Source: a virus
Strand: one strand, 5' to 3'
Virus record (IMG/VR): IMGVR_UViG_3300020462_000067
Location: 1 to 20,583 of that record
DNA length: 20,583 bases
Position numbers and translations under genes: made by a program. Numbering within the stretch: the stretch's first letter is position 1; each line of letters opens with the position of its first letter. Shown here in pieces: positions 1 to 20,583 of the stretch. The notes beneath the pieces were generated by a model that ran no database searches, was not told where the DNA came from, and was given only the letters and a program-made list of their open reading frames with translations.

Positions 1-366
1 GTTCTTGAATAAATCATTACTTACAATATAATCACTATCTAACATCAGTGTTTCGTCATAAGGGGTTAAATCATACGCACTAGTTCTTAAATCATTCTTA
101 AATTCTAACTGTTTAAAAATATTAGTGCCGTCATAATAACGTTTTCTACTAGGTGCAGTTGATAATGGGACTTCTATTACTTGATCAAAGACTGTTTTAT
201 AATCTTTATAAGTGTCTTTAAGATATTCGACACTATCTGTAACTATAGTTGTAGGGAGGTCAAGATACTGTTTAATACGTTTTGCTAAAAAATGTGCTTG
301 TTTGACGTAGTCTATTTGAGCATTATTTCGAGCAAAAATTAATACGCCTTTTTTATTGTTGCTCAT
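1..366 (-). CDS. Glycosyltransferase-like phage protein (N-terminal part, runs off left edge)
   Basis: The frame is open from an ATG at 366-364 to base 1, giving the first 122 residues of a longer protein; no stop is reached. It begins MSNNKKGVLIFARNN and continues with a predicted alpha/beta pattern (VLIFARN, then a helix, then PTTIVTD), ending with LDSDYIVSND at about residues 109-118. The Asp-x-Asp (D110-S-D112) after a hydrophobic strand is what a nucleotide-sugar and metal-binding DxD motif of a GT-A glycosyltransferase looks like. Proteins of this appearance recur beside structural genes in marine T4-like phages. The start is fixed by an in-frame TAG just upstream (375-373); an AGGA at 377-380 is a plausible ribosome site. 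The ATG lies inside the 119-residue gene, a 14-base overlap that suggests translational coupling. The enzyme role is inferred, and the rest of the protein lies outside the window. Confidence 0.72.
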   Translation of the reverse strand, partial: MSNNKKGVLIFARNNAQIDYVKQAHFLAKRIKQYLDLPTTIVTDSVEYLKDTYKDYKTVFDQVIEVPLSTAPSRKRYYDGTNIFKQLEFKNDLRTSAYDLTPYDETLMLDSDYIVSNDLFKN

Positions 367-712
367 GGTCAACTAATCCTGACACAGTCCTTTTAGTGCG
401 GATTTTTTCATACTCTGTTTGATATTCATTAGTGGCCGCAAAATAGATATCCATAATATCGTCAAAGAACTTAATTAAATCTTCAATCTTAATTGGAGTA
501 TCATTATCATCAAGCAAGACTATATCAGAGTCATTACCCTTGCTTATAAGCATACTCACAAAAGTAATCAATTCTTTAGTTACTGAAAATTGTCCGCCAT
601 TAAAATAATGCACGGCACTTTGATAATACTTTTCTTTTAAAACACGCTTTTGATTATTCAGCGTTACCATGTAATTAGAAAAGTCTAATGCTTTGGATAA
701 TCGCTCATCCAT
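353..712 (-). CDS. Conserved small marine T4-like phage protein, unknown function
   Basis: This gene encodes 119 residues starting MDERLSKALDFSNYMVTLNNQ. The protein looks soluble and largely helical, with charged stretches (KRVLKEKYYQ, EDLIKFFDDIMDIYF, YQTEYEKIRTKR) and no signal peptide or membrane segment. The 'KALDFSNYMVTLNNQ' and 'FNGGQFSVTKELITFVS' blocks resemble, from memory, a conserved hypothetical protein of T4-like cyanophages. No biochemical role can be assigned. The start is well supported: a strong AGGAGA ribosome site lies at 718-723, five bases before the ATG. That site is buried in a hairpin that also carries a late-promoter-like octamer, so this gene probably has special translational control. 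Its 3' end overlaps the glycosyltransferase-like gene by 14 bases. A chaperone or assembly factor for the neighbouring fibres is conceivable but is pure inference. Confidence 0.88.
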   Translation of the reverse strand: MDERLSKALDFSNYMVTLNNQKRVLKEKYYQSAVHYFNGGQFSVTKELITFVSMLISKGNDSDIVLLDDNDTPIKIEDLIKFFDDIMDIYFAATNEYQTEYEKIRTKRTVSGLVDHEQQ

Positions 713-717
713 AACTA

Positions 718-748
718 TCTCCTGTTAATATGCTATATTTACAGGAAA
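718..748 (-). promoter_or_regulatory. Hairpin sequestering the ribosome-binding site of the 119-residue gene
   Basis: Read on the minus strand, bases 745-741 (CCTGT) pair with 725-721 (ACAGG) and bases 739-735 (AATAT) pair with 731-727 (ATATT). These are separated by one A-A mismatch and close on a three-base loop AGC (734-732). The outer stem extends through 746-748 with 718-720, including one G-U pair. The 3' arm therefore contains the complete AGGAGA Shine-Dalgarno site (723-718). No U-run follows the hairpin, so an intrinsic terminator is unlikely. The 5' arm contains the late-promoter-like octamer. Confidence 0.6.
736..743 (-). promoter_or_regulatory. Candidate T4-type late promoter (TGTAAATA)
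   Basis: Read on the minus strand, TGTAAATA matches 7 of 8 bases of the T4 late promoter octamer TATAAATA. It lies in the 56-base gap 713-768, the longest non-coding stretch in the window, 23 bases before the ATG of the 119-residue gene. Initiation a few bases downstream, near 730, would leave a short leader that keeps the ribosome site but loses the 5' arm of the hairpin. Confidence 0.5.
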
Positions 749-768
749 ATTACTTTGGGGAAGTTAAA

Positions 769-1674
769 TTAGGTTAGATTACTACCAGCGTCATTGGCAT
801 ACGTTGGCGTAGGAACCGCAACGTTTACACCAGTTGGACGGAATTGAGTAATGATGCTTGTAAGTGTACCCTTAACAAATTCATCAGTTGGTGTACCTGG
901 ATCTGTAGGATCATCATCATTAAAATTAATTCTAAATGTTAAAATATCTGGGTTAGGTGCTGTATTACCTTTTACTTCAATAATATAATGGTTTTCTGTA
1001 TACTGTCCTGATCCTGCTTTATCAAAAACTGCTTGATAACTTGTAGTAAGATCATGATAACCAATAGCAGAACCTGTACCTGATCCTGTTGATGAAGTAG
1101 CTGTATAGTTAAATTTTACTGTTCCCATATTAGATAATATTGTAGCCCAGTTAATTGTTTTAGCTTCTGTACCAACAAACGCAATATTTGCCGACATACG
1201 AACTTCACCGCCTGCATTAAAGTATTGTCTTGCATGATCAGTATCTGTAAACGTTACATTAACTATATGATCAAGTTGACCATTCCAATCAACAGTATAT
1301 TGGCCTTGAATGGCCGCTTCTGCTGTACCTTGATTAGTATCTATTAGGAATTTTTCATTTTCAAGTGTAGTAGTTAAGTTCTCAAATTGGGCAACACCTT
1401 TTTTATTAACTGAATTACTATCTTCAATTACATCGGTTGCAACAATAAGAGCAATTTCACTTGGTGCAGTATTTGTTTGGTGTACTCTACCTGCGGAAAT
1501 GTCATTAAAAAGCAACGACATATGAGTTGCTGTAACAATCTCTGCCGCGGCTACTTGTGAGCTCTCTAATGATTGACCGTATCCGTCATCACCAGAACCA
1601 GTTCCTAAGATTGTAGCAACACGACTTTGTAAGTTATTGTATCGTGCCGCTGTGATAATATCACCAACTGCCAT
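769..1674 (-). CDS. Marine T4-like phage virion structural protein, ITA-YN-LQ family
   Basis: This gene encodes 301 residues. The N-terminus, AVGDIITAARYNNLQSRV followed by ILGTGSGDDGYGQ (about residues 2-33), is a signature I associate with virion proteins of T4-like cyanophages and pelagiphages. It is followed by an 'H..LL.ND...GR.HQ' block. The centre contains HARQYFNAGGEVRMSA (about 148-163), another block recurrent in marine phage structural proteins. The rest is Thr/Ser/Gly-rich and probably beta-structured; I see no cysteine and no membrane segment. The C-terminus is a low-complexity DDDDPTDPGTPTDE stretch, then an open tail. The start is supported by AAAGG at 1683-1687, inside the end of the 501-residue gene; only three bases separate the two genes, so they are probably co-transcribed. 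It is likely a tail or fibre accessory protein; its exact place in the virion is unknown. Confidence 0.85.
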   Translation of the reverse strand: MAVGDIITAARYNNLQSRVATILGTGSGDDGYGQSLESSQVAAAEIVTATHMSLLFNDISAGRVHQTNTAPSEIALIVATDVIEDSNSVNKKGVAQFENLTTTLENEKFLIDTNQGTAEAAIQGQYTVDWNGQLDHIVNVTFTDTDHARQYFNAGGEVRMSANIAFVGTEAKTINWATILSNMGTVKFNYTATSSTGSGTGSAIGYHDLTTSYQAVFDKAGSGQYTENHYIIEVKGNTAPNPDILTFRINFNDDDPTDPGTPTDEFVKGTLTSIITQFRPTGVNVAVPTPTYANDAGSNLT

Positions 1675-3203: not shown

Positions 3204-3211
3204 TATTTATG
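3204..3211 (-). promoter_or_regulatory. Candidate T4-type late promoter (CATAAATA)
   Basis: Read on the minus strand, CATAAATA matches 7 of 8 bases of TATAAATA. It lies in the 33-base gap between the 604- and 501-residue genes, ending 20 bases before the 501-residue ATG. Spacing and position match the other two candidates. It would drive the 501-301 gene pair. No convincing hairpin covers this ribosome site. Confidence 0.55.
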
Positions 3212-7701: not shown

Positions 7702-7709
7702 TATTTATT
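7702..7709 (-). promoter_or_regulatory. Candidate T4-type late promoter (AATAAATA)
   Basis: Read on the minus strand, AATAAATA matches 7 of 8 bases of TATAAATA and sits across the stop codon of the giant gene, ending 18 bases before the ATG of the 204-residue gene. It is preceded by CTAAATA in the same stretch, another late-promoter-like heptamer. It would drive the 204-677-604 unit independently of the giant gene. Base composition makes chance matches possible. Confidence 0.5.
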
Positions 7710-10700
7710 TAGGTAACGTTGCCTCTTCACTTCTTAAGAAACGTCCTATACTGTTTTCCTGTCTATGCAACGGAACTCCTGTGTCAGTCCACACTCGCCC
7801 GAGCTTTCTCACCACTATAATTTTACTATTAATTGGTGGTGTATTCAACATTGTTACTGTTGAAGTTGTACCATCTACGCTAAATTCCGCAGGTAGTGTA
7901 ACATCTGCTTCAGGGCTGTCTAAATCAACAGTTTTATCGAATGAACTAATTTCATTCTTGCGTAAACGCTTCCCTGCTACAAAAATTTCAAAATCATTTA
8001 CTGATTTTGGAATAAAATCAACTGTTATAGCCTTAGTTGAACCATCAGCTGAAAATACTTGAGTTAGTACTTCGTCTTTATAAGGTACCGTCTGTGGACT
8101 ACTTTGATCAAATACATCAGTTCCTGTAGTATGCTTCTCTGCAATACCTGTTCCTAATGTACCCCTGCGTAACTGCCTAATAGCGCCACCTTCTTTCAGA
8201 TAGTACTCTATACGCTCTCCATTAATGAATAATATACCTGGAATTCCCTTATCTTTATTAGGGAGCGGTAAACTATCATAATTTGTGACAAAAATCTTAC
8301 TATCATACCAATTTAAGTCTTCAGCTAATGTGTATTTATTACTATCTCCAAGACGCTTGTAGTGTGTTCGGTTAAGCATATCTTTAAAGATACTAAACCC
8401 AAATTTAGGAATAATTATAGGATTAGTAAAGTGTATAACTTCAATTGTATCATTAGGGTCTATATCAACTACAATCCTGATATGTTTTCTATCATCAGTA
8501 ACATAGTAATCAATGCTAGGAGTTAATGCTACTTGATTTAACGTAACCCATACATATTCAGCATCAATGGCTTCTTCACGTAATCTAATTATTCCATTAG
8601 TTAATTGATGATATTCAGTATAATCATCTGTTCCAACTGTAACAGCATTTCTAGCCACTACATCAAATACTTCTCTTTCTATTTTTCTAATATCGTGCTT
8701 ACTAAACTGATAGATAGTTACTAGATCACCATTAGCCGGAGCAGTATCTAAATAAACTTCATTTGGTGTTTTAACAAATAAACTTGTTCCACTATCAAAG
8801 TAACCCATTTGATACTCACCACTATCAATAATAAACACTTCTAATTTGTCGCCAACAACACCAACATCTGTGTTTAACACAACTGTTCCATTAAATGTGT
8901 CCCAACGCCAAGTTGTATTAAGAGTTTCTTCAACTCCATTTAAAAATACTCTAACGTTTTCAGCACTAACTGTAGCTGTTGAAATTTGCCATTGACGTAA
9001 TTGATATTCGCGTCCTACAGCAACTACAAACTGTTGATTATATCCTGCTTTTAAAAATTTATTACCAACCTTAACTACAATGTTTTGACTAGTTGGCTCA
9101 CTAGTAAATGGTACTTGAGCTAACTGGAATTTCTTATTAATAGCATTACCAGTAAAACTATCTGTTGTCATTTGACTAAATTCTTGAGACGTACTGTCGT
9201 AAATTGCATATTGAATTACTGCACCAGCATTAGGAACTGATCCTAATCTAAATACAGCTCTGTTTGGAGTTTCATACGTGCTGTCTGTTTTAGATAAATC
9301 AGTAGTAACAGTTTCTCCGTCAACAGTTAAAGTAAATGACAATCCGTCTTTCCAAACAACCGGCGTTACAAATTGTGCTGTTGATCCGTCACCAACAAAT
9401 TTATCTATGTCAAGAATCTTTTCACCGTTGTTAGACATTGTTGAAATATGTACTAATTTATTATCACTAGGTGCTGTAGTAAATTCAAGACGTTTAAGTT
9501 GATAATTTATAGTAAACCCTGTTGGTGCTTCTAAAATTGCTCCATCAACTTTTACAAAAATGTCTTTATTACTCGCTGGTAACTGATTAATATTAAAATT
9601 CTTATTAGTTCCGTCACCAAAGTAATTATGACTACTAATAATACTTGAACCATCTGCTGTTCTATCGTAAACTTTAAAATCAACAGTATCCATAACTTGT
9701 CCTGGAATTAATTCTTCAGGACCTTTAGATGTTAATGGTGTAACAAATCCGTCGCCGTCAACAACTATTTCTTCTGACAAAATTCCTTTAGCTGACGAAT
9801 AAGCTAGATCGCCGCCTTGTAAGGCTGTATCATAAGCATCAGGATCTGGAATAAAACTACCATCACTAGATGCCTTTCTAATAACAATTACATCATCAGC
9901 AACTGTTGGAATTACTTCTTCATCTAACTGAACTGTTTGTGTAACGCCGTCACCTATAATTGAATCCATTACAGCGTTTGGATTTCCTGTTACTCCAATA
10001 GTACTTCCGTCCCATTGTGGGTCATCTACACGTACACCATTTTTATAAACGTTATAAGTTACACCATCTTCTAATGGTTTGCTAAGAGCAAACACATTGG
10101 TGCTTCCGTCTAATGTAAATATTTCATCTTCAAATGTATTATCAAACGTATCCCAGGTTGAAGTAAACCAAGGTTCTGCAAACCAACCTGCTCCGCCACC
10201 AAAGTCAAAACTTCTAATTTCTACACCACCGTAATCAATACCTTCCATTAACTGTGATATATCATTTCCTAGCATTCCGTCAGTTGGTTTATAAAATAAA
10301 TTAATACGGTCTTGTGCTTGAAGCATATCAACAGCTTTGCTGTACTTAATTACTACTGGTGCTAAATTCTTAGGAGGTTCTATGAAGAATATTTCTCCTG
10401 TATATCTTGTATATCCTTTAGTATTATCTGCAACATTTTTAAAAGTGTACTCGCTTGTTAATGCTTCAACTCCGCTAACAGTAATAAAAATTTGACTTGG
10501 TCTTAAATCCATAGGCCATTTTAATGAAATCCTTTGCGTACTTGCATTACCAGTAAAGGATTCTGTTTCTTCAAGAGTAGTAATTAAGAATGTTCCTGAT
10601 ACTCTATCAAATCTTGATACAATGTGAGCATTACGTATTTTTCCATTACCTAATTTTGCAGAAACAACTGCTGGTTTACCGCCTTCTGATTGTGTACCAT

Positions 10701-13700
10701 TAATAGTAACTGTTGGTGCTGACAAGTAACCTGTTCCAACATTTGTCATTTTAATCCAAGTAATTTTTCCACCTGTACCAATGTATGCTTGTGCTTTAGC
10801 ACCTGTTCCGCCACCGCCACTAAATGTAATTACTGGAACTTCAAGATACCCTGTTCCACCATCTTTAATTTGAATCATTACAACTTCGTAACCTAAACAA
10901 TCTTTCCAATGCTTGTTTGGATACGTTGAAATTAATTTATCTTCGCCATACAATGCATCATCTTTAATTTTCAATGACGCTGGTACAATTCTTCCATCTT
11001 CCATATTATAAGCTGGTGGTAAATCAAAATCTGTTATTACAGATTGTGTATTATCTTGTCTTGTATAAGAAGTTAAGTATTCCCTAATTTTAGTTTTGTA
11101 GGGTTTAGTTTCTTCAATAAATTTTTCATAACTTGGAAGATTATCATTTTGGAATGTAATTTTTTCAGTTAAATCTCCAATGTTATGTTTTGCTTTAAGG
11201 AAACTAGTTTTAAATGCCCAATCAATAAATCGTTGTTCAGAAAGAACATAACGTAAACTTGACGTAAACAATTTATTATATTCAACAGCAAGATCGTCTA
11301 CAAAAATATCATCACGTAATGCTTCTAAAATTACTCTAAATTCATGTACTGGTTGATTATCATAATCACTAGTATCATAACTTAAACTATCATATCCTAT
11401 ATGATGTGTTGGATAGTTAAACAAACTTGAAGCAAATTGTATTGTTCCGTGCTGTCTACCAACTGTTGAATAATTTGTAGTATAATCTGTATCTACAATA
11501 TCATTAATTTTCTTTAATAATAGCCAACCGCCTGTACCTACTGTTTTAATTTTAACAACATCACCTAGCTTATCGTCTAATGCTGTTAGTTGATAGCTTT
11601 CATCAATTAAATGATTAACGTGTGAAAACTCATTATATCCTGTTTCATACCAATCAGCATACTCCCAAAATTCAGGAACATTATATGATTGACTGTCAGT
11701 TCTTTCCCATAGTTTTGTTGTAATACTATAAGCATGAATTGACCACTTACCGTTAATGTTTTCATCTGCTTTAATAAGTGTGCTATATTTTCTAACTTCT
11801 ATTGCGGCTGATATATCATAATCTCTACCGGCGTGTTTTACAGCTACAGAATTAATTTTTCCTAACGTGTCTATTGTTATAATAAGTTCAGCACCTCGAC
11901 CGTTACCTATTTTAGTAAATTCGTATGTTGGTGGTACTTTATAACCTCTACCTGGATCAGTAATTTCAACTCTATCTAATTTACCATTAATCCAAATTGG
12001 TGTTAACACCGCTTGTTTAACATTCGCAGTACCAACAAATACTAATTCAGCATACGTATCAACAGTTTGATCAAACTTGCCAGAATTAATAGTTGGCATT
12101 AAATCAACTTGTTTTAAATTCTCAATATTAAATTCATCAACAATAATATGTTGTTTAAGAACCCTATTAACTCTTTCAATAAGTTGTTTTACTGCTTCAA
12201 GCCTATTTACAAACCAACTTTGTCTTGGTCTATCTAAAATACCGTATCTTTCTTTTGGACTTAAATCAGTATCTGGAACTGCTCTATATTTTATATCCCA
12301 GCCAATTAAACTATCAAACCACTTACGTTCTACATCTGCTTTAGGTCTACTAGTTTCTAATCCGTCACTTATAAGTTGATATTCATTATGAATATTAGTA
12401 TAAACTGGAATAGTCCAGTAACGGAAATTAACTGCTGAATTATCTGAATTAAACAATGCATCAGTATTATATAATGCAAATCTGCTGTCACTATACAATG
12501 ACGCATACTTATAACCTTGAGCTTTAGGATCTTCAATTAATTGTGCAACATCAAACGCACTTGTTTTTCTCCAGTCTAGATCAGGAATAAACTTTTTGTT
12601 TTTTACCCAATAATAATACTTTGTTGAAAAACTTTGTGCTTGTTTATTAAACACTCTAACTGATGCTAATGTAGAATCATCAATATATTTAGGTGTTCCA
12701 CTAATGCCTTTTGCTAATCCTTCTTCTGTATCTGCTATCTCATTCCATTGTGATGGTTTAAGTGTTGATTCAACCCATTCGTAAATATCAACTGAAGCAC
12801 CTTTAAATAATTTACCCCACGTTGCTGTTTGATAAATTATATCTCCTTGGTACGGATTATGATATTTTACAGTACTTAAATCCCACCATAGTTTTCCAAC
12901 ATACGGTTTGCCCCAAGCGGCTCCTTCATCAACAACAGATATCTCCATACCAATTGTGTATGTTGCTGGATCATATAATGTTTTAAAGGAAATTTCTTCT
13001 TCGGCAGTACCTGCAATTTTTCCTTGAATAGGATCGATATAATCTATCTGACTAGCAAGTAAATTTTTCGCTGTATCATAAACAAACACACCTTTAAATT
13101 TAGATACATCAACTTGATCAATTGGAAAACGTAATTGTTCCCACGATAGAACATTTCTTTCGCGTCTAAAGTCAATTATTGTTCCCATAAAATTATCGCC
13201 TGGAGTAATAGTTAATTCAGGCATAGAAACATAAACATGGTTATCTGTAAATAATACATGATCACCGAAGCGTCTTGTTACAGGATTATTATAAACAAAT
13301 TTTTCACTATAAAGTAATGTATTGTTAAAACGCTGGAAAATAAGAACTTGTCCACTATCTTCATTTGCTGTTTTAAACTGGGTAAGATTATTATCAAACG
13401 ATGTAGTTACAACTGTAGTGTTTGCATCAAATTTTGTAGTTGAAATAAGATCACCACCACGTGATGAAACAGCTAAATTGTTTTTATCAAAGTCTAATGT
13501 TGCACCAAATCTTTCTGCTACATCAGTCTCTGGACTATAAAGTGTTTGAGACCATACAAAGCTACCTTCTACAAGTCTGTAAACATAAACAGCACCATTA
13601 TTAGTATCCACTTCATCTTGTAGTGGAGCTCCAATGGCTACCATTGTTCCATCATCTGAAACTGCTACTGCTGTTCCAAACCCTATACCTGGAGTAGGTG

Positions 13701-16700
13701 TTACTATTGCTTGACTAAATTCATAATGGCCTTGATTTATTCTATATATAAGAACCTTAGGATCACTATCAGTAAACTCAGCCACTACAGCTAAAACATT
13801 TCCATCTTTATTACTTGTAAACGTTTTAGCAAAATTCTTTAATGTTGCTTGATCTACAATTATCTCACCATCAACAACTAAACCAACATCGTTAGGAATA
13901 TATCCTACATAATCTATATGGCTTGATAATTGTGTCCATACTCCTGGAACAAACGCACCCGCTGATAAATTAGTTTTACTTTGATAAAAAGACTGTTGAT
14001 ATAAAACAATATCATTTTCAAAATAAATTGTTGACGCACTAAACACACCTTTATAATTTTTGTCTTTGCCAATTGCATAATCAAATGTGTTTCCACTTGC
14101 ATCTTCACCGTGATTAAAGAAGTATACTCTACCAGCTTCACCTACTGTATTAGCATCTTGAGTACTAACATACAAATAGTGTAACTTGTTATTTGTAGCA
14201 AATTCTACTTTTTTACCAAGGTATTTGTTATTATCATTATGCTCTGAAATATATCCATGGTTTAATGAATACTCGCCATTAGGTGTTTTATCATAAGTTA
14301 AAAATATTCCTTCGTTAGTGTATGAACTTGCATCACCTTCTGTATGTGCTGGAACATTATATTTTTGCTTCCAGTCTTTGTTTAATGGCGATGGGTAATT
14401 AGGTGTTCTAGCAATTCCACTAACTGTACTACTTGAGTAAAAATGTACTTCTAATTCATTTTGAAACGTTGACGAAGTAACTGGTAATTGAGTTGAATCC
14501 GTATTTTTAACAATAACCATCTTACCTGCAATCGATGAATCCATATCGGCATGATCTAATCTCCCAGATAAACGATTAACGCCAGGACTAATAGCATCTT
14601 TAATACTAATAGTACTAGTAGCACTATTATTAAATCCAAAGCTAAATGTCCCTGTTCTGTCTTTTACATAAACGCGACACGTTAATAGTTGTTCTTGTAA
14701 GTATGTTACTTTAGCTGTGGCACCTGTGGTGTCGTCAATAATAATTTGATTTTCTTGAGGAATATAAGGATTTCCACTTAAATCAAAGTTTGTAAATGTA
14801 ATATCAATAAACCCGTTCCATAAATCAAATACTGTATGTGCCTGGTCATTTAGGTATGGAAAAGTTAAGCCTAACGATGCGGGGTCAAATACTGAGATAG
14901 GTGCAACACCTCCTCTTATAGTATTAACCCAAAAGTTAATGCTGTCTATTGGATTAACAGTATCTGTAAATGCCTTTGGTCCTCTTACAAACCACAGTTC
15001 ACTTAAATTAGGTAAACCGTTTTTATCATAATAACTTAAATGTCCTAATCTGCCGCCTCTTGTTGGATCTGTAACAAGACTTAATGCACGTACATCGTCC
15101 ATTGTGTTGCCAAAGACAACAGGTGAACGTGATTCAGCTGAAGTAATAAAATCTTGTCCAATAAGATTAGGTATTGAAATTTCTTGTAATTCAGTTACCG
15201 CTGTAGTAAATGAAGGAATACCATCAATTCTCCACCAACCGCCAAATGTACTTGCGGCGTTAGTTGGTCTAATTAATTCAAATGTTCCACAACTTTGTGC
15301 ATTTAAAGAAATTGTGCCAGTGGGTGCAAATGCTCCACTAACATCTTTCATATAAATTATAGCTTGGCTAACATTTTCAATTCTAATATATGATACTTCA
15401 CCAACCGCAGTATCTGACGATAATGTATCGCCTGTTGTTGGAATACGTATTATGTTGTCAACGTATAATACTGCATCAATTTTAGTTGCAATAGTTTTAG
15501 TTCCTTCTACTGCTGAAATACCTGGGCCGACTTCACCCCACGGTTTTATACCAGTTGGATAATTTTGTGAAAATTCATTCCAGTTAAGAACTACTTTATC
15601 ACCTGCGGCTGATCCATCATATTGTGCAACTGGGGCTCTAATTAATATATGATCTGTAGTAACATCTAATCCATAATCACCTCTAATAGCATAAACTATT
15701 TTAGGATATGAATTGTTTACTGTATCATAATGAGCTTCTTCTATAAACGACGTTGACCAAAAACTTGGAAATGTTAATGCTCCTGTTGCCGCTGATATTG
15801 GAAATTGTGCTTCCCAGAATGTTTCTAGATACTTAACAAGGTTGCCGGCAATATAAGCTGAACCTCCATCAAAGTCACCTTTAAATTTAGTTTTTACATT
15901 ACTGGCATTCGGAGCACTAATAACTAAATGATTTCCATCATCACTTAATGCAACACTAGATCCAAATTTTCCTGGGCCAGTATAAAGTCCATTAGGTGCA
16001 TCAATTGTTTGTCTATGATAATAATCTACATTGTCTGCAACTCTATTAAAAACATAAACTTTTTCTTGTTCACTTGATGATGCAACTAAAATAGTATTTC
16101 TATCGTTAGTTGCAATAACTTTACCAAATTCATGTCCTTCACCTGTTACTAGGTTAGAAATAAATTGATGTGAACTGTATGTTGGTTTATTTTGTAATAC
16201 AGACCATTTATTATTATCGTCGTCATCAACCCAAATTATTTCACCGTGTTGTAATTCACTATTAATAATTCTAGTATTTGCTTCTGCCATTGTAGCAACT
16301 CTGGCGGAAATAAACTTTGTAATAAATCCATCAGCAAGTTCTACATCTTCAGTTGTGCCGTTTTCATAACAAATAATCTCAGCTAATGATACTGCTTTAA
16401 CTTTAAAGAATTTTTCTGCACCAGCAACATCAAGTACACCTACTAAATCGTCTTTGCTATATCTAGCTTGTGTATTAATTTTTATTGTTGTTGTTTTAGC
16501 ATCTTTATCTGAAGTTATAGATACAACTCTATCTAGTGTTCTTACGTACTTAACAACATCCCATGTTGCTCCACGTGAGCCTACCCATACATAATCTCCA
16601 ACATTTAAAGATGACGTTGCTTCATTTAAAATATCATCATACTTTGCAACTGTTAATTTAACATCTTGTTCGTTAACAAAACCAGCTGTCTGTATATACT

Positions 16701-19700
16701 CTAAAAAGTTTTCACGTTTTGGAAACGGCTTATGATTATAATTGTTAGGTTTAAGATAAACTTCAAACGGTCTTAGACGATAAATTAAATCAGTTTCTAA
16801 GCCTGAAACAGTATCAACTAATTCAATTGGTTGCGGAGATAGTTTAAATTGAGCTTCATCTAATTTAAATTCTACTTCATCAAAGCCATCAGTAGAGCCA
16901 TACTGTCCTAACTTAACAGCCCACTCTTCATAAAAGTCTATACTGTCTTTGTCTGCACTACTTAATGCATCAAATAATTTTGTTAAACTATTTTGTGTTC
17001 CTTTATCTTGAATATACCCTTGATAAAATTTATATTGACTAACATCATCATTAATAATATTTGAAAGATACTCTCTCTTTTGATATCCTATAAGATGTTG
17101 TGCTATTCTTTGTTGTTCTGTATCAAAGTTATCAGTATCTAAATCATAATAATCTTTAAATTGTTTTGCTTTATAATCTAAGTTTGGAATTAATTTAGCT
17201 TCTGGTTTAACAGATAGTCGTTCCCACTTAGAAGCATCAAAGTTTTCTGTTCCAGGTGTTTTTATTGTAGAAACATAATAAAATTCTTTATATTTTACTG
17301 TATCACCTATAACATAATCTTTATAAGATTTCCATTCATTAACAACTGCATTGTCATATATAAAGCCTGGAATATTTAAACTTCCTTTCCAGTCATCAGT
17401 TCTATAACCTAAAACTTTAATTCGTTCTTGTCTATATCCTGGTTCTAAGTCATAGATTATATCATTAAAAACTGTATGATTATCAAGTAAACAAACGTGT
17501 TCTTTTTGTATTAACGGTAACTTAACAGCATATATACCATCAGCAGTATTTCGTGTAGTTATTTCAAGTCTATTATCGTTACTTCTATAAACTTTAGCAA
17601 ATTCAGGTTCTAATTTACGACCGTCTGCTTTTAAAAGTGTAAAGTCGTGGAAGCTATCAAAGATATTATCAGAAACAAAGTAGTCTCTTTTAAATTTTAA
17701 CTTATTACCAGCTGGACTTAAAGTTATAACACTATCTTCTTTCCAGTTTTGTGTACTCCAGAATAAAAATTCTTTAGCACTTAACTCCCAGTTTTCAATT
17801 GTATTAATAGTAGAATTAAAATAATTAAAATCAAATCCTAATTGTTCTAAGTACTTGCCGTAACCTAATAAGAAATCAACAACTTCTTGAATCGATGTTA
17901 ATAACGTACCATAAGCTAATTCCTTTGTACTATTAATAATTGGAGGAGTAATATCAAACTGACGTCTGAATACTGCTTCTGTACCTCCACTAGTTGGTAA
18001 TTCAACTAATTTAGCAAAAAATTCTTGTTGAAAATCAGTTCCACTAGTATGAGCGTCTTTAACTCTAAAAAATTCTGTACCAAACTGAACAGTTTGTCCT
18101 AATACATATACTTGGTTTGCTCTCCATTCTAAGAATGAATCAGTAACTCCGCCTACTCGTACAACAGGATCGTCTGTTAACTCAATTGCTCTAAGATAGG
18201 TAAAGTATGGATTAGTTTTATCATATCCTTTTATAATAAAGCCTGCGGCTTTTTTCTCAATAATAACACCACTATAACTTACTAGCTCAACTACAGAACT
18301 TGTATTTAAAAATACTTTATAGTTTTCGTCTGGAACAAAAACATTACCTTCGTTAAACGGAGACCTGCTATCTAATAATAGTTTAAATTTGTCTTTATGA
18401 GTATATCCAGCAACTTTAAATCCTAACTGATTTTTTAAAGACTTTAATGAAGTTGAATAATCACTATATAACCCTTGTGATTCTGAATTAATATAATCAC
18501 AAATATAATTAACTAATCCTGAAGTATTAGACCTAACAGTATCTGTTATTGACATAGGAAAAACTAAATCTTTTAGTCGAACTCTTTTATTAGTTTCGCT
18601 ATAAACAATCTCTTTTGCTGGATTACGAATAATTCGTGATCTATCAAATCCTAATCCCATAATTTTAGTTGGTTGATTAAGAAGCCAACTACAAAGGAAT
18701 GCAAACGGATATTCGCTACTTCTACGCCAAGCTGTTTCTGTTGGTGCTTCGTCTCCAAATACAAATTCTTTTTTAGTTAAAACAAGAACATAGTTTTTAG
18801 CAAAGTTACTATCTAATGGACTTAATAAGTTACCTTCGCCATCAACAGGAATATGCTTTGTAATGTCTTTTCTCGCATACGCGGCAAGATATTTTACTGC
18901 TTTGCCGGGTTCTCTAATTACACCGTCTTCGATATCTTTCCATAAAATTTTATTTTCTCTAGTATAAGGTGCTGGACCATATACGCCTTGCCACCAAGTT
19001 GGCTCAATAGTATATCCTAATATTTCCCAAGGATGTGTATGCGGGCGATCAGTATCATATGCTTCTTTATAAATTGCTCTCCAATACCCTGGTAGTTTTG
19101 CTCCTTTAGGTGAAGTCATACTACCATAGTTAAATGTAAAACTATTTGTTCTTTCATAGAAGTCATGATCTGTATAATCTATATTATTAACATTTTCTAA
19201 CCAAGCTACAAAGTCTGTAATTAAGGCTTTATCTCTATCCCATTTTCTAAACCCAGTATCCCTTGACTCGCCGCCAATAAATTCGTGTATATCTAAAATA
19301 GTTGGATCATATTCAGTTTTTATATTATTAAAGATTCTTTGTTCTAGTTCTAATAATAAATCATCTCTAAAATCGCCAAAGCAAACAAAAATATTACCAT
19401 CGTGCCCTTGTATAACTTCAGTTGGCGTTTGATAAGTGTTATCAATGTATTTCATTGGTTTATATTTTGGATATAAACCTAATTTAGTTGGCGTTGCTGG
19501 AATATAACTTCCATCAGTAGTTTCGTATTCAGAAATCTCAATAATATCATCAACGGCTTTAGTTGCTGTAACTGTTACAAAGCCCGGATGGTCAGCTTCA
19601 AATATATAATCTATACCATGATGTAATTGTGCTTTATTTTTATAAACGTAAACTGCTCTATTAGATAAAGTTTTTAAATCAAAGTTATTAGACAATGCAA

Positions 19701-20583
19701 AAAATTGTGTATCTTTGTCTTTTACCTTATGCGTTGTTGTGATACACGTTCCAATACCTATCATATCACTAAAGTAAAACGGCATATCGTTAGTTTTACT
19801 ACTAACTACTGCATCCATTACTTTATTAAAATGAAGTAATGTTTCTCCTGTAAATCCTACAGTATTTGCTTTTTGAAGAAATAGTCTTCTAAACTTTCCA
19901 TATTCATTACTAGCATATCTAAGTGCTTTAATAATATTTGCATTACTATCAGTAATATGATATAAAGCAAGATCAAGCTGTCCACTATGTTGAACAAAAC
20001 GTCGACCATATGGAGCAAGGTTTCCAATGTCTCGTAAATTATTCATGCCAGGCATTGAACCTTTAAACTCATCATTATATTCACTCATTGAGTGAACATG
20101 GTCAGTTACTTCGCCTAATGTAAAAGCAAGAACATTATCGTTTAATGGATTTCGTTCTAAGTTATGTGGTATTTCATAATATCCGTTTTGATTTTTCTTT
20201 GTAGCACTATTAGATATAACTTTAACTATATCATCAGTTACTAACTTTTTAATAAACGTAATATAAGCTATACCGTTAATTCTATTAACTGCAAAATCTG
20301 TTAAAGGATATTTTCTTACATTATTAACATAAACTCTTAACCATAAATCATTTAAGTCACCACTACGGTCATAAACATCAACAGCAAAGTCATTTGTTTG
20401 ATTAGTAACAACATATTGTCTTACCACGTGTTGTCTACTATTTTTAATAGCTTTAATCCAACCCGAAGTATATACAAAAGTACTAAGATCGGAAAACTCT
20501 TTTAATAATGTTACGTCAGTATTTCCTTTTACAACTGCATTATTTTGTTGATAGGTATATGTCTCACTTAATAAATCAAAATT
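7705..20583 (-). CDS. Giant modular virion structural protein (at least 4,292 residues, 5' end beyond window)
   Basis: One frame without a stop fills 63% of the window and stays open to the right edge. A GTG at 20427-20425 could be taken as a start, but the frame continues upstream for 52 more sense codons and no ribosome site precedes the GTG, so the true start lies outside. Residues below are counted from the edge. About 418-561: conserved KLPGYWR, DTDRPHTHPWEILG and PTWWQGVYGPAPYT blocks. 806-864, 1078-1123 and 2178-2224: chitin-binding (CBM5/12)-like modules. 1478-2489: seven FG-GAP-like propeller blades interrupted by an insertion. 2551-2604: GKLWWDLSTVKYHNP block. Near 2655: YYYWVKNKK. 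Near 2785: RPRQSW. 2866-2938 and 3231-3316: GTGY modules. 3338-4264: array of beta repeats. Near 4140: RRGTLGTG. The blocks match, from memory, very large structural proteins of marine T4-like phages. Its place in the virion (baseplate periphery or fibre) is unknown; the beta-rich domains argue against a tape measure. Confidence 0.9.
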   Translation of the reverse strand, partial: NFDLLSETYTYQQNNAVVKGNTDVTLLKEFSDLSTFVYTSGWIKAIKNSRQHVVRQYVVTNQTNDFAVDVYDRSGDLNDLWLRVYVNNVRKYPLTDFAVNRINGIAYITFIKKLVTDDIVKVISNSATKKNQNGYYEIPHNLERNPLNDNVLAFTLGEVTDHVHSMSEYNDEFKGSMPGMNNLRDIGNLAPYGRRFVQHSGQLDLALYHITDSNANIIKALRYASNEYGKFRRLFLQKANTVGFTGETLLHFNKVMDAVVSSKTNDMPFYFSDMIGIGTCITTTHKVKDKDTQFFALSNNFDLKTLSNRAVYVYKNKAQLHHGIDYIFEADHPGFVTVTATKAVDDIIEISEYETTDGSYIPATPTKLGLYPKYKPMKYIDNTYQTPTEVIQGHDGNIFVCFGDFRDDLLLELEQRIFNNIKTEYDPTILDIHEFIGGESRDTGFRKWDRDKALITDFVAWLENVNNIDYTDHDFYERTNSFTFNYGSMTSPKGAKLPGYWRAIYKEAYDTDRPHTHPWEILGYTIEPTWWQGVYGPAPYTRENKILWKDIEDGVIREPGKAVKYLAAYARKDITKHIPVDGEGNLLSPLDSNFAKNYVLVLTKKEFVFGDEAPTETAWRRSSEYPFAFLCSWLLNQPTKIMGLGFDRSRIIRNPAKEIVYSETNKRVRLKDLVFPMSITDTVRSNTSGLVNYICDYINSESQGLYSDYSTSLKSLKNQLGFKVAGYTHKDKFKLLLDSRSPFNEGNVFVPDENYKVFLNTSSVVELVSYSGVIIEKKAAGFIIKGYDKTNPYFTYLRAIELTDDPVVRVGGVTDSFLEWRANQVYVLGQTVQFGTEFFRVKDAHTSGTDFQQEFFAKLVELPTSGGTEAVFRRQFDITPPIINSTKELAYGTLLTSIQEVVDFLLGYGKYLEQLGFDFNYFNSTINTIENWELSAKEFLFWSTQNWKEDSVITLSPAGNKLKFKRDYFVSDNIFDSFHDFTLLKADGRKLEPEFAKVYRSNDNRLEITTRNTADGIYAVKLPLIQKEHVCLLDNHTVFNDIIYDLEPGYRQERIKVLGYRTDDWKGSLNIPGFIYDNAVVNEWKSYKDYVIGDTVKYKEFYYVSTIKTPGTENFDASKWERLSVKPEAKLIPNLDYKAKQFKDYYDLDTDNFDTEQQRIAQHLIGYQKREYLSNIINDDVSQYKFYQGYIQDKGTQNSLTKLFDALSSADKDSIDFYEEWAVKLGQYGSTDGFDEVEFKLDEAQFKLSPQPIELVDTVSGLETDLIYRLRPFEVYLKPNNYNHKPFPKRENFLEYIQTAGFVNEQDVKLTVAKYDDILNEATSSLNVGDYVWVGSRGATWDVVKYVRTLDRVVSITSDKDAKTTTIKINTQARYSKDDLVGVLDVAGAEKFFKVKAVSLAEIICYENGTTEDVELADGFITKFISARVATMAEANTRIINSELQHGEIIWVDDDDNNKWSVLQNKPTYSSHQFISNLVTGEGHEFGKVIATNDRNTILVASSSEQEKVYVFNRVADNVDYYHRQTIDAPNGLYTGPGKFGSSVALSDDGNHLVISAPNASNVKTKFKGDFDGGSAYIAGNLVKYLETFWEAQFPISAATGALTFPSFWSTSFIEEAHYDTVNNSYPKIVYAIRGDYGLDVTTDHILIRAPVAQYDGSAAGDKVVLNWNEFSQNYPTGIKPWGEVGPGISAVEGTKTIATKIDAVLYVDNIIRIPTTGDTLSSDTAVGEVSYIRIENVSQAIIYMKDVSGAFAPTGTISLNAQSCGTFELIRPTNAASTFGGWWRIDGIPSFTTAVTELQEISIPNLIGQDFITSAESRSPVVFGNTMDDVRALSLVTDPTRGGRLGHLSYYDKNGLPNLSELWFVRGPKAFTDTVNPIDSINFWVNTIRGGVAPISVFDPASLGLTFPYLNDQAHTVFDLWNGFIDITFTNFDLSGNPYIPQENQIIIDDTTGATAKVTYLQEQLLTCRVYVKDRTGTFSFGFNNSATSTISIKDAISPGVNRLSGRLDHADMDSSIAGKMVIVKNTDSTQLPVTSSTFQNELEVHFYSSSTVSGIARTPNYPSPLNKDWKQKYNVPAHTEGDASSYTNEGIFLTYDKTPNGEYSLNHGYISEHNDNNKYLGKKVEFATNNKLHYLYVSTQDANTVGEAGRVYFFNHGEDASGNTFDYAIGKDKNYKGVFSASTIYFENDIVLYQQSFYQSKTNLSAGAFVPGVWTQLSSHIDYVGYIPNDVGLVVDGEIIVDQATLKNFAKTFTSNKDGNVLAVVAEFTDSDPKVLIYRINQGHYEFSQAIVTPTPGIGFGTAVAVSDDGTMVAIGAPLQDEVDTNNGAVYVYRLVEGSFVWSQTLYSPETDVAERFGATLDFDKNNLAVSSRGGDLISTTKFDANTTVVTTSFDNNLTQFKTANEDSGQVLIFQRFNNTLLYSEKFVYNNPVTRRFGDHVLFTDNHVYVSMPELTITPGDNFMGTIIDFRRERNVLSWEQLRFPIDQVDVSKFKGVFVYDTAKNLLASQIDYIDPIQGKIAGTAEEEISFKTLYDPATYTIGMEISVVDEGAAWGKPYVGKLWWDLSTVKYHNPYQGDIIYQTATWGKLFKGASVDIYEWVESTLKPSQWNEIADTEEGLAKGISGTPKYIDDSTLASVRVFNKQAQSFSTKYYYWVKNKKFIPDLDWRKTSAFDVAQLIEDPKAQGYKYASLYSDSRFALYNTDALFNSDNSAVNFRYWTIPVYTNIHNEYQLISDGLETSRPKADVERKWFDSLIGWDIKYRAVPDTDLSPKERYGILDRPRQSWFVNRLEAVKQLIERVNRVLKQHIIVDEFNIENLKQVDLMPTINSGKFDQTVDTYAELVFVGTANVKQAVLTPIWINGKLDRVEITDPGRGYKVPPTYEFTKIGNGRGAELIITIDTLGKINSVAVKHAGRDYDISAAIEVRKYSTLIKADENINGKWSIHAYSITTKLWERTDSQSYNVPEFWEYADWYETGYNEFSHVNHLIDESYQLTALDDKLGDVVKIKTVGTGGWLLLKKINDIVDTDYTTNYSTVGRQHGTIQFASSLFNYPTHHIGYDSLSYDTSDYDNQPVHEFRVILEALRDDIFVDDLAVEYNKLFTSSLRYVLSEQRFIDWAFKTSFLKAKHNIGDLTEKITFQNDNLPSYEKFIEETKPYKTKIREYLTSYTRQDNTQSVITDFDLPPAYNMEDGRIVPASLKIKDDALYGEDKLISTYPNKHWKDCLGYEVVMIQIKDGGTGYLEVPVITFSGGGGTGAKAQAYIGTGGKITWIKMTNVGTGYLSAPTVTINGTQSEGGKPAVVSAKLGNGKIRNAHIVSRFDRVSGTFLITTLEETESFTGNASTQRISLKWPMDLRPSQIFITVSGVEALTSEYTFKNVADNTKGYTRYTGEIFFIEPPKNLAPVVIKYSKAVDMLQAQDRINLFYKPTDGMLGNDISQLMEGIDYGGVEIRSFDFGGGAGWFAEPWFTSTWDTFDNTFEDEIFTLDGSTNVFALSKPLEDGVTYNVYKNGVRVDDPQWDGSTIGVTGNPNAVMDSIIGDGVTQTVQLDEEVIPTVADDVIVIRKASSDGSFIPDPDAYDTALQGGDLAYSSAKGILSEEIVVDGDGFVTPLTSKGPEELIPGQVMDTVDFKVYDRTADGSSIISSHNYFGDGTNKNFNINQLPASNKDIFVKVDGAILEAPTGFTINYQLKRLEFTTAPSDNKLVHISTMSNNGEKILDIDKFVGDGSTAQFVTPVVWKDGLSFTLTVDGETVTTDLSKTDSTYETPNRAVFRLGSVPNAGAVIQYAIYDSTSQEFSQMTTDSFTGNAINKKFQLAQVPFTSEPTSQNIVVKVGNKFLKAGYNQQFVVAVGREYQLRQWQISTATVSAENVRVFLNGVEETLNTTWRWDTFNGTVVLNTDVGVVGDKLEVFIIDSGEYQMGYFDSGTSLFVKTPNEVYLDTAPANGDLVTIYQFSKHDIRKIEREVFDVVARNAVTVGTDDYTEYHQLTNGIIRLREEAIDAEYVWVTLNQVALTPSIDYYVTDDRKHIRIVVDIDPNDTIEVIHFTNPIIIPKFGFSIFKDMLNRTHYKRLGDSNKYTLAEDLNWYDSKIFVTNYDSLPLPNKDKGIPGILFINGERIEYYLKEGGAIRQLRRGTLGTGIAEKHTTGTDVFDQSSPQTVPYKDEVLTQVFSADGSTKAITVDFIPKSVNDFEIFVAGKRLRKNEISSFDKTVDLDSPEADVTLPAEFSVDGTTSTVTMLNTPPINSKIIVVRKLGRVWTDTGVPLHRQENSIGRFLRSEEATLPK
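7790..10570 (-). repeat. Array of degenerate ~80-residue 'GDGST' beta repeats in the giant protein C-terminus
   Basis: Repeated units follow the pattern F.GDGst..F.L...P.....i.V.VdG......Y.......i.F...P..g..i.v. Examples of unit starts: SFTGNASTQRISLKW (near 10570), FTLDGSTNVFALSKP (near 10125), IIGDGVTQTVQLDE (near 9955), YFGDGTNKNFNINQLP (near 9630), FVGDGSTAQFVTPVV (near 9405), SFTGNAINKKFQLAQVP (near 9160), FSADGSTKAITVDFIP (near 8060) and FSVDGTTSTVTML (near 7890). Between the last two classes lies a conserved insert with GIPGILFINGERIEYYLK and RRGTLGTGIAEKHTTGTDV (about 8100-8300). The repeats probably form serial beta-sandwiches of a fibre or adhesin stalk. Confidence 0.6.
10635..11985 (-). 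other. Two 'GTGY' glycine-rich beta modules flanking a linker in the giant protein
   Basis: Module 1 (about 11770-11985) has DPGRGYKVPPTYEFT, then GNGRGAELIITID, then VKHAGRDYDISAAIEV. Module 2 (about 10635-10890) has DGGTGYLEVPVITFSGGGG, then GTGAKAQAYIGTGGKIT, then NVGTGYLSAPTVTING. Each unit therefore contains two half-repeats of the form (G.GY..pP.i.f...g.Ga.a...i..gg.i..i.v...G.gY). This pattern recurs in marine phage virion proteins; its function is not known to me. Confidence 0.5.
13110..16150 (-). other. Region encoding a probable seven-bladed FG-GAP-type beta-propeller with insertions
   Basis: Within the giant gene, seven units share a pattern: (F/L)G..v...D.n.l.V..p followed by .vyvf.r. 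Blade 1 (16020-16140): FGKVIATNDRNTILVASSS...KVYVFNR. Blade 2 (about 15855-15975): FGSSVALSDDGNHLVISAP. Blade 3 (14085-14260): LGKKVEFATNNKLHYLYVS...RVYFFNHG. Blade 4 (13680-13840): FAKTFTSNKDGNVLAVVAE...VLIYRINQG. Blade 5 (13520-13690): FGTAVAVSDDGTMVAIGAP...AVYVYRL. Blade 6 (13275-13515): FGATLDFDKNNLAVSSR...VLIFQRF. Blade 7 (13110-13270): FGDHVLFTDNHVYVSMP...IIDFRRE. Seven is the blade number of integrin-alpha-type propellers. About 530 residues separate blades 2 and 3, and a chitin-binding-like module separates blades 3 and 4. The fold is inferred from the repeat pattern. Confidence 0.65.
17215..17350 (-). other. Chitin-binding (CBM5/12)-like module in the giant protein
   Basis: The encoded WKSYKDYVIGDTVKYKEFYY, followed by a 'T.GTENFDASKWERL' ending, has the layout of a CBM5/12-like carbohydrate-binding module: W...kdY..GD.V.y...fY.s...t.G..f....W. 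A second clear copy lies at 17990-18165 (WRANQVYVLGQTVQFGTEFF) and a third at 13905-14055 (FSASTIYFENDIVLYQQSFY...VPGVWTQL). A possible degenerate fourth is near 15810-15870 (YIAGNLVKYLETFWEAQF). The match is to the pattern, not to a database. Confidence 0.5.

Follow-up and report, generated by a model that had tools for sequence, protein, structure and literature searches.

A hairpin that hides the ribosome-binding site of a small conserved marine-phage gene and carries a promoter-like octamer in its 5' arm

The locus behind the tail-fibre genes

The window, that is the whole stretch of 20,583 nt analysed, contains a short gap between the end of a tail-fibre block and the gene of a 119-residue protein. 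The features at and around this gap are as follows.

1-366, minus strand: glycosyltransferase-like gene, start only (ATG at 366), with a 14-nt overlap with the end of the 119-aa gene
353-712, minus strand: 119-aa gene, the controlled gene, of a conserved marine-phage family
718-748, minus strand: hairpin sequestering the ribosome-binding site (5' arm 748-735, loop 734-732, 3' arm 731-718)
718-723, minus strand: AGGAGA Shine-Dalgarno (SD) site within the 3' arm, from sequence and fold
729-731, minus strand: predicted transcription start that removes the 5' arm, by T4 late-promoter geometry some 13 nt downstream of the octamer's first base
736-743, minus strand: TGTAAATA, an octamer resembling a gp55-type late promoter, within the 5' arm and beginning at -31 relative to the ATG
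769-1674, minus strand: 301-aa gene, end of the tail-fibre block, upstream on the same strand and source of read-through RNA
3204-3211, minus strand: CATAAATA, late promoter of the upstream block, at -28 of a 501-aa gene
7702-7709, minus strand: AATAAATA, late promoter at -26 of a 204-aa gene, an element also present in the nearest long relative

Searches of Pfam, PHROGs, NCBIfam and PDB sequences did not assign a convincing function to the 119-aa protein, and 50,697 annotated phage records contained no match to the gene. Matches to Adenosine_kin and flagellin fell below cut-off and were taken as chance. The AlphaFold2 model of the protein (pLDDT 88.5) comprises two long helices, two beta hairpins and a short helix. 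It matched the folds of an uncharacterised phage protein (E 1e-5) and of DUF4376 phage proteins (E ~2e-3), and the PDB fold search returned weak prefoldin similarity only (1fxk, E 0.4). From this fold similarity and the position behind the fibre genes, a role as fibre-assembly chaperone would be a fair guess and no more. The next gene, labelled glycosyltransferase-like in the first-pass annotation, would be expected to be controlled together with the 119-aa gene that it overlaps; its full-length homologue had no Pfam family match. Further upstream lies the gene of the 204-aa protein, homologues of which occur in jumbo phages of the Rak2-like group and of Agrobacterium and Sinorhizobium. It is preceded by an open frame of at least 4292 codons (7705-20583, minus strand) that runs off the window, and Sinorhizobium phage Phosso carries a homologous giant virion structural gene at the equivalent place.

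The hairpin and its promoter-like octamer

The minus-strand leader of the 119-aa frame reads 5'-UUUUCCUGUAAAUAUAGCAUAUUAACAGGAGAUAGUU-AUG. In its minimum free energy fold, 748-741 pair with 725-718 and 739-735 with 731-727, the sole mismatch being A740xA726, and the inverted repeat, the AGGAGA at 723-718 and TGTAAATA at 743-736 lie exactly where the first-pass annotation had placed them. Computed at 37 °C, as were all folding energies for these marine phages, the 60-nt RNA of 690-749 folds at -19.1 kcal/mol with a z of -5.2 and was equalled by 0 of 200 shuffles; larger contexts lower the signal to z -4.3 and -2.2. Folding with and without the 5' arm left the SD closed on read-through RNA and largely open on RNA begun at 730/731. 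On the former the probability of SD pairing is 0.95-0.96 with 30-150 nt of downstream context and opening costs about 10 kcal/mol, against 0.2-1.6 kcal/mol on the latter, where the SD is paired with a probability of 0.12-0.31 in RNAs reaching up to +100. At +150 this probability is 0.67, yet opening still costs only 1.6 kcal/mol. On upstream-initiated RNA the SD is predicted to lie in a helix, a trait of the T4 e type of leader. A small second hairpin covering the AUG (711-693) is predicted for the long and the internally started RNA alike. The Rfam search returned only a sub-threshold match to Mu-gpT-DE (E 0.33), which was rejected.

The octamer TGTAAATA differs from TATAAATA by one mismatch, at -12. 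By itself it is no rarity in the window, where 68 one-mismatch matches to TATAAATA were observed and 91 expected by chance. As in gp55-dependent promoters, the AT-rich TAGCATATTAA lies directly 3' of the octamer and a -35 element is absent near the gap; a scan of the window found no sigma70-like site around it. The first-pass annotation had proposed a late promoter inside the hairpin. The gp55-like sigma and the ATAAATA promoters of close relatives described below are in keeping with this, but TGTAAATA itself deviates from the phage consensus [GAC]ATAAATA, which was derived from the nearest long relative. In that relative TGTAAATA occurs in 15 copies, and the only one (1/15) to precede a gene stands before the homologue of the 119-aa gene. 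Late promoters of Aeh1 likewise deviate at -13/-12 (PMC2988020). The 5' arm contains TGTAAATA, and its TAAATA core is common to all 12 clusters of the window's clade. Off consensus as it is, TGTAAATA may plausibly be an active late promoter in the window.

The window is a 20.6-kb fragment; the gp55-type sigma was found in long relatives. It was recovered with T4 gp55 as query and then with the profile phrog_12791, and 7/8 long relatives encode such a late sigma (profile E about 1e-74 to 1e-80), including the nearest of them, L010 (L010/G001, 199,810 bp; E 5e-74). The sigma-70 region 2 profile (PF04542) gave no match in five relatives. In L010, ATAAATA is the most enriched upstream 7-mer (17 genes vs 0.46 expected), where it reads [GAC]ATAAATA and for the most part lies between about -25 and -34, and the counterpart of CATAAATA in this genome is GATAAATA. 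The enrichment together with the sigma agrees with what excerpts of the report on the Rak2-like jumbo phage CBB describe, namely a gp55-like sigma and ATAAATA before structural genes (PMC5259590). The supergroup of CBB has homologues of the 204-aa protein, and the late motif and sigma type are the same, whereas the 119-aa gene lacks a match in annotated phages and the excerpts describe no nested hairpin (PMC5259590).

Three further late-promoter genes of the nearest long relative (L082:12262-13705, L089:16045-19546 and L089:1952-2198, all on the minus strand) have leaders that fold over the start site more than in any of 100 shuffles. One of these leaders runs ATAACTTCC-GATAAATA...-GGAAGTTAT ahead of a 480-aa gene. 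With such leader-over-start folds at three more late-promoter genes, the device may be general in this group.

Sequestration and promoter class among relatives

The queries put to viral contigs were the 119-aa protein, the alignment made from it and three distant relatives; they yielded 312 leader records, 98 of them distinct, in 64 clusters at 80% identity. The nearest upstream ORF lies on the same strand almost everywhere and is usually a homologue of the 301-aa gene; the gap between it and the gene measures about 40-115 nt, mostly 50-75, and a glycosyltransferase-like homologue directly follows in every relative whose contig extends far enough. The layout is therefore conserved, the relatives having in common a read-through source, a short gap, the gene and a coupled gene.

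For each cluster only the upstream part was shuffled, with dinucleotides kept and the SD and coding part fixed. Across the 64 clusters, opening the SD costs a mean of 6.0 kcal/mol vs 3.5 for shuffled leaders, and 36% beat 95% of their shuffles. Opening the start region (-13 to +5) takes 10.5 on read-through RNA, 7.2 on shuffled and 3.9 on internally started RNA, and in 41% of the 64 clusters it is hidden more deeply than in 95% of the shuffled leaders. Genes from the same phages that served as controls have a mean z of ~0 (n=49), and 8.5% of 235 dereplicated controls pass the same 95% threshold as compared to 41% (Fisher p 9e-9). The pass rate is 8.6% among sigma70-promoter controls and 11.8% among late-octamer controls (Fisher p 5e-4 for each). 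Class by class, 7/12 clusters of the late clade pass vs 6/51 late-promoter controls (p 0.0015), and 19/52 of all remaining relatives vs 3/35 sigma70-promoter controls (p 0.0026); as the clusters are related and phylogenetically non-independent, all these Fisher p values are descriptive. In 29/29 strong clusters the bases that pair with the start region come mostly from upstream of the predicted +1 (mean 94%), a figure partly expected because these clusters were selected for upstream pairing and the leader is short. About half of the distant clusters have no significant sequestration.

The stems are built from unrelated sequences in different lineages, such as CUUUAGACU/AGUCUAAAG in L081, AUACUCCUAU/AUAGGAGUAU in L079, CUCCUUUAA/UUAAAGGAG in L130 and CUCCUAUUAGU/ACUAAUAGGAG in L154. 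At the fourth pair of its stem, counted from the CC/GG end, the window has G-C; among close relatives, L002, L003 and L011 have G-U there and L009 has A-U. These changes were read by eye, without a covariation model, because a MAFFT alignment of six close leaders puts L009 one base off. The first-pass annotation had looked to aligned relatives for compensatory changes and had named a stem disrupted without compensation as evidence against its proposal. The hairpin is kept, with the G-C, G-U and A-U forms of that one pair, but the close lineage L005/L010 (91-92% protein identity) goes part of the way towards such a disruption, its outer pair being broken and its SD paired at only 0.40. The start region of L005/L010 is still somewhat closed (rank 9/100), and L018 has no excess of sequestration. 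Taking the predicted folds and controls together, the hairpin that hides the ribosome-binding site in the relatives is very unlikely to be a matter of chance.

A different pairing was seen in L019, L020, L026 and L027 of the late clade, where the SD is poor (GGA/AGGA). The 5' arm (UCUAAAUAGUA) pairs in most of these leaders with the AUG and the bases immediately preceding it, and L019 and L020 rank 1-2 of 100 for the start region.

The promoter nested in the leader is of two classes. Around 50 of the 64 clusters carry a near-perfect sigma70 promoter (TTGACA-17-TATAAT/TATACT) whose -10 element mostly ends 22-29 nt before the ATG, which places the +1 just upstream of the SD. The TAAATA late-type motif is limited to the 12 clusters of the window's clade, at -24 to -41, in the forms TGTAAATA, TCTAAATA, ATTAAATA, TTTAAATA and CTTAAATA. 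This clade has an SH-aLRT support of 97 and the promoter class label needs one change on the tree, a single switch from sigma70 to late-type. In four members (L016, L036, L124 and L130) a -35 element, either degenerate or good, is still followed at 17 bp by a TATAAT, and the late octamer falls within this sigma70 spacer. The two starts would be about 5-15 nt apart, and these leaders look like intermediates between the promoter classes.

Proposed selection by transcript origin and competing explanations

We consider it likely that the gap acts as a filter for transcript origin, which keeps read-through RNA silent, lets internally started RNA be translated and insulates the gene from the fibre operon. 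RNA reading in from the fibre genes, presumably abundant, would carry both arms and bury the SD, so that the 119-aa protein, and probably also the product of the overlapping glycosyltransferase-like gene, would be poorly made from it. RNA begun at the promoter core in the 5' arm, with its +1 near 730, would be without that arm and would be translated. The purpose may be to insulate the dose and timing of the gene from a strong late fibre operon. A moving ribosome or an RNase could alter the fate of the long RNA.

The first-pass annotation had read the gap as a T4-style switch. In T4, the start sites of e, soc, 49 and I-TevI are hidden on upstream-initiated RNA, transcripts of e that start at late promoters within the structure are translated well, and similar leaders were reported in T4 relatives (PMC3014915). 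The window shares with e an SD in the 3' arm, a late-type octamer in the 5' arm and an internal start that would free the SD. It differs from e in that the small gene is non-homologous and lies behind tail-fibre genes, the upstream RNA is probably late, the octamer is TGTAAATA, most relatives are sigma70-type and the 5' ends are predicted ones. The RBS-hiding hairpin and the promoter-like motif in a removable arm stand; the early/late timing is not supported in the form proposed. A true temporal switch, with early or middle read-through silent and late RNA from TGTAAATA translated, would fit this anatomy, the gp55-like sigma and the TAAATA core retained in the window's clade. We nevertheless judge it unlikely, as the fibre block has its own late promoters that make the read-through RNA probably late, the window showed no sigma70 promoter in the vicinity of the gap and the nested promoter of most relatives is sigma70-type. 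The off-consensus TGTAAATA and the late promoters upstream make insulation from fibre read-through likelier than early/late separation, and in the sigma70-type relatives the gene would be early and the late read-through silent, the reverse of T4. Selection by transcript origin would be the common denominator across both promoter classes.

The other explanations concern the stem itself. Its main role could be to end fibre-operon transcripts as an intrinsic terminator overlapping the next promoter, with SD hiding as a by-product; in L033, L050, L062, L079, L160, L161 and L243 the promoter core lies in a strong stem with a U run after it (U runs were taken directly from the leaders), and those stems may also terminate the fibre transcript. 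For the locus as a whole this is improbable, because a U tract is missing from the window and its close clade, the stem there being followed by AGUUAUG, a terminator scan of the gap found no GC-rich stem with U tract, and 17/64 leaders are T-rich before the ATG, several of them without such a stem. The literature search gave no useful match for a promoter within a terminator. That an AT-rich promoter core pairs by chance and without function with an AT-rich leader would accord with a stem made mostly of A-U pairs, with the want of good SD pairing in L005 and L018 and with the distant clusters that are not significant, but it is rendered very improbable by the dinucleotide shuffles, by promoter-bearing control genes of the same phages that lack the effect and by the building of the stem from different sequences in different lineages. 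A protein-binding or RNase processing site serving stability control or autoregulation has precedent in T4 genes 43 and 32, where stems at the start site act as operators. It is hardly to be credited here, where neither loop nor stem sequences are conserved between lineages and only the pairing to the start region is kept, which is unlike a protein operator.

For the origin filter that we favour, a close likeness is offered by IS10 and IS50, in which read-through RNA folds over the start site, RNA from the internal promoter does not, and the element is protected from outside transcription. This origin-dependent fold matches the sigma70 form of most relatives, whereas in IS10/IS50 it serves transposase genes at element ends and here a resident phage gene with conserved synteny. 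It is quite possible, though we stop short of favouring it, that a sigma70 promoter in the stem is ancestral, the gene having been early and silenced on late fibre read-through, and that one clade moved to late-type control via double-promoter leaders with the hairpin kept. If so, the hairpin would have outlived its promoter and the sigma70 form would be a mirror of T4 lysozyme.

Promoter-in-hairpin switches are a classic of T4, known from few genes and mostly from close T4 relatives. In the family described here, one small gene has the layout in dozens of marine phage lineages, divergent as they are, and with two promoter classes. The unrelated stem sequences are natural replicates for asking whether selection on hairpins of this kind acts on timing, dose or insulation. 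The system also lets one ask how the transcription class of a phage gene can change while its translational lock is kept.
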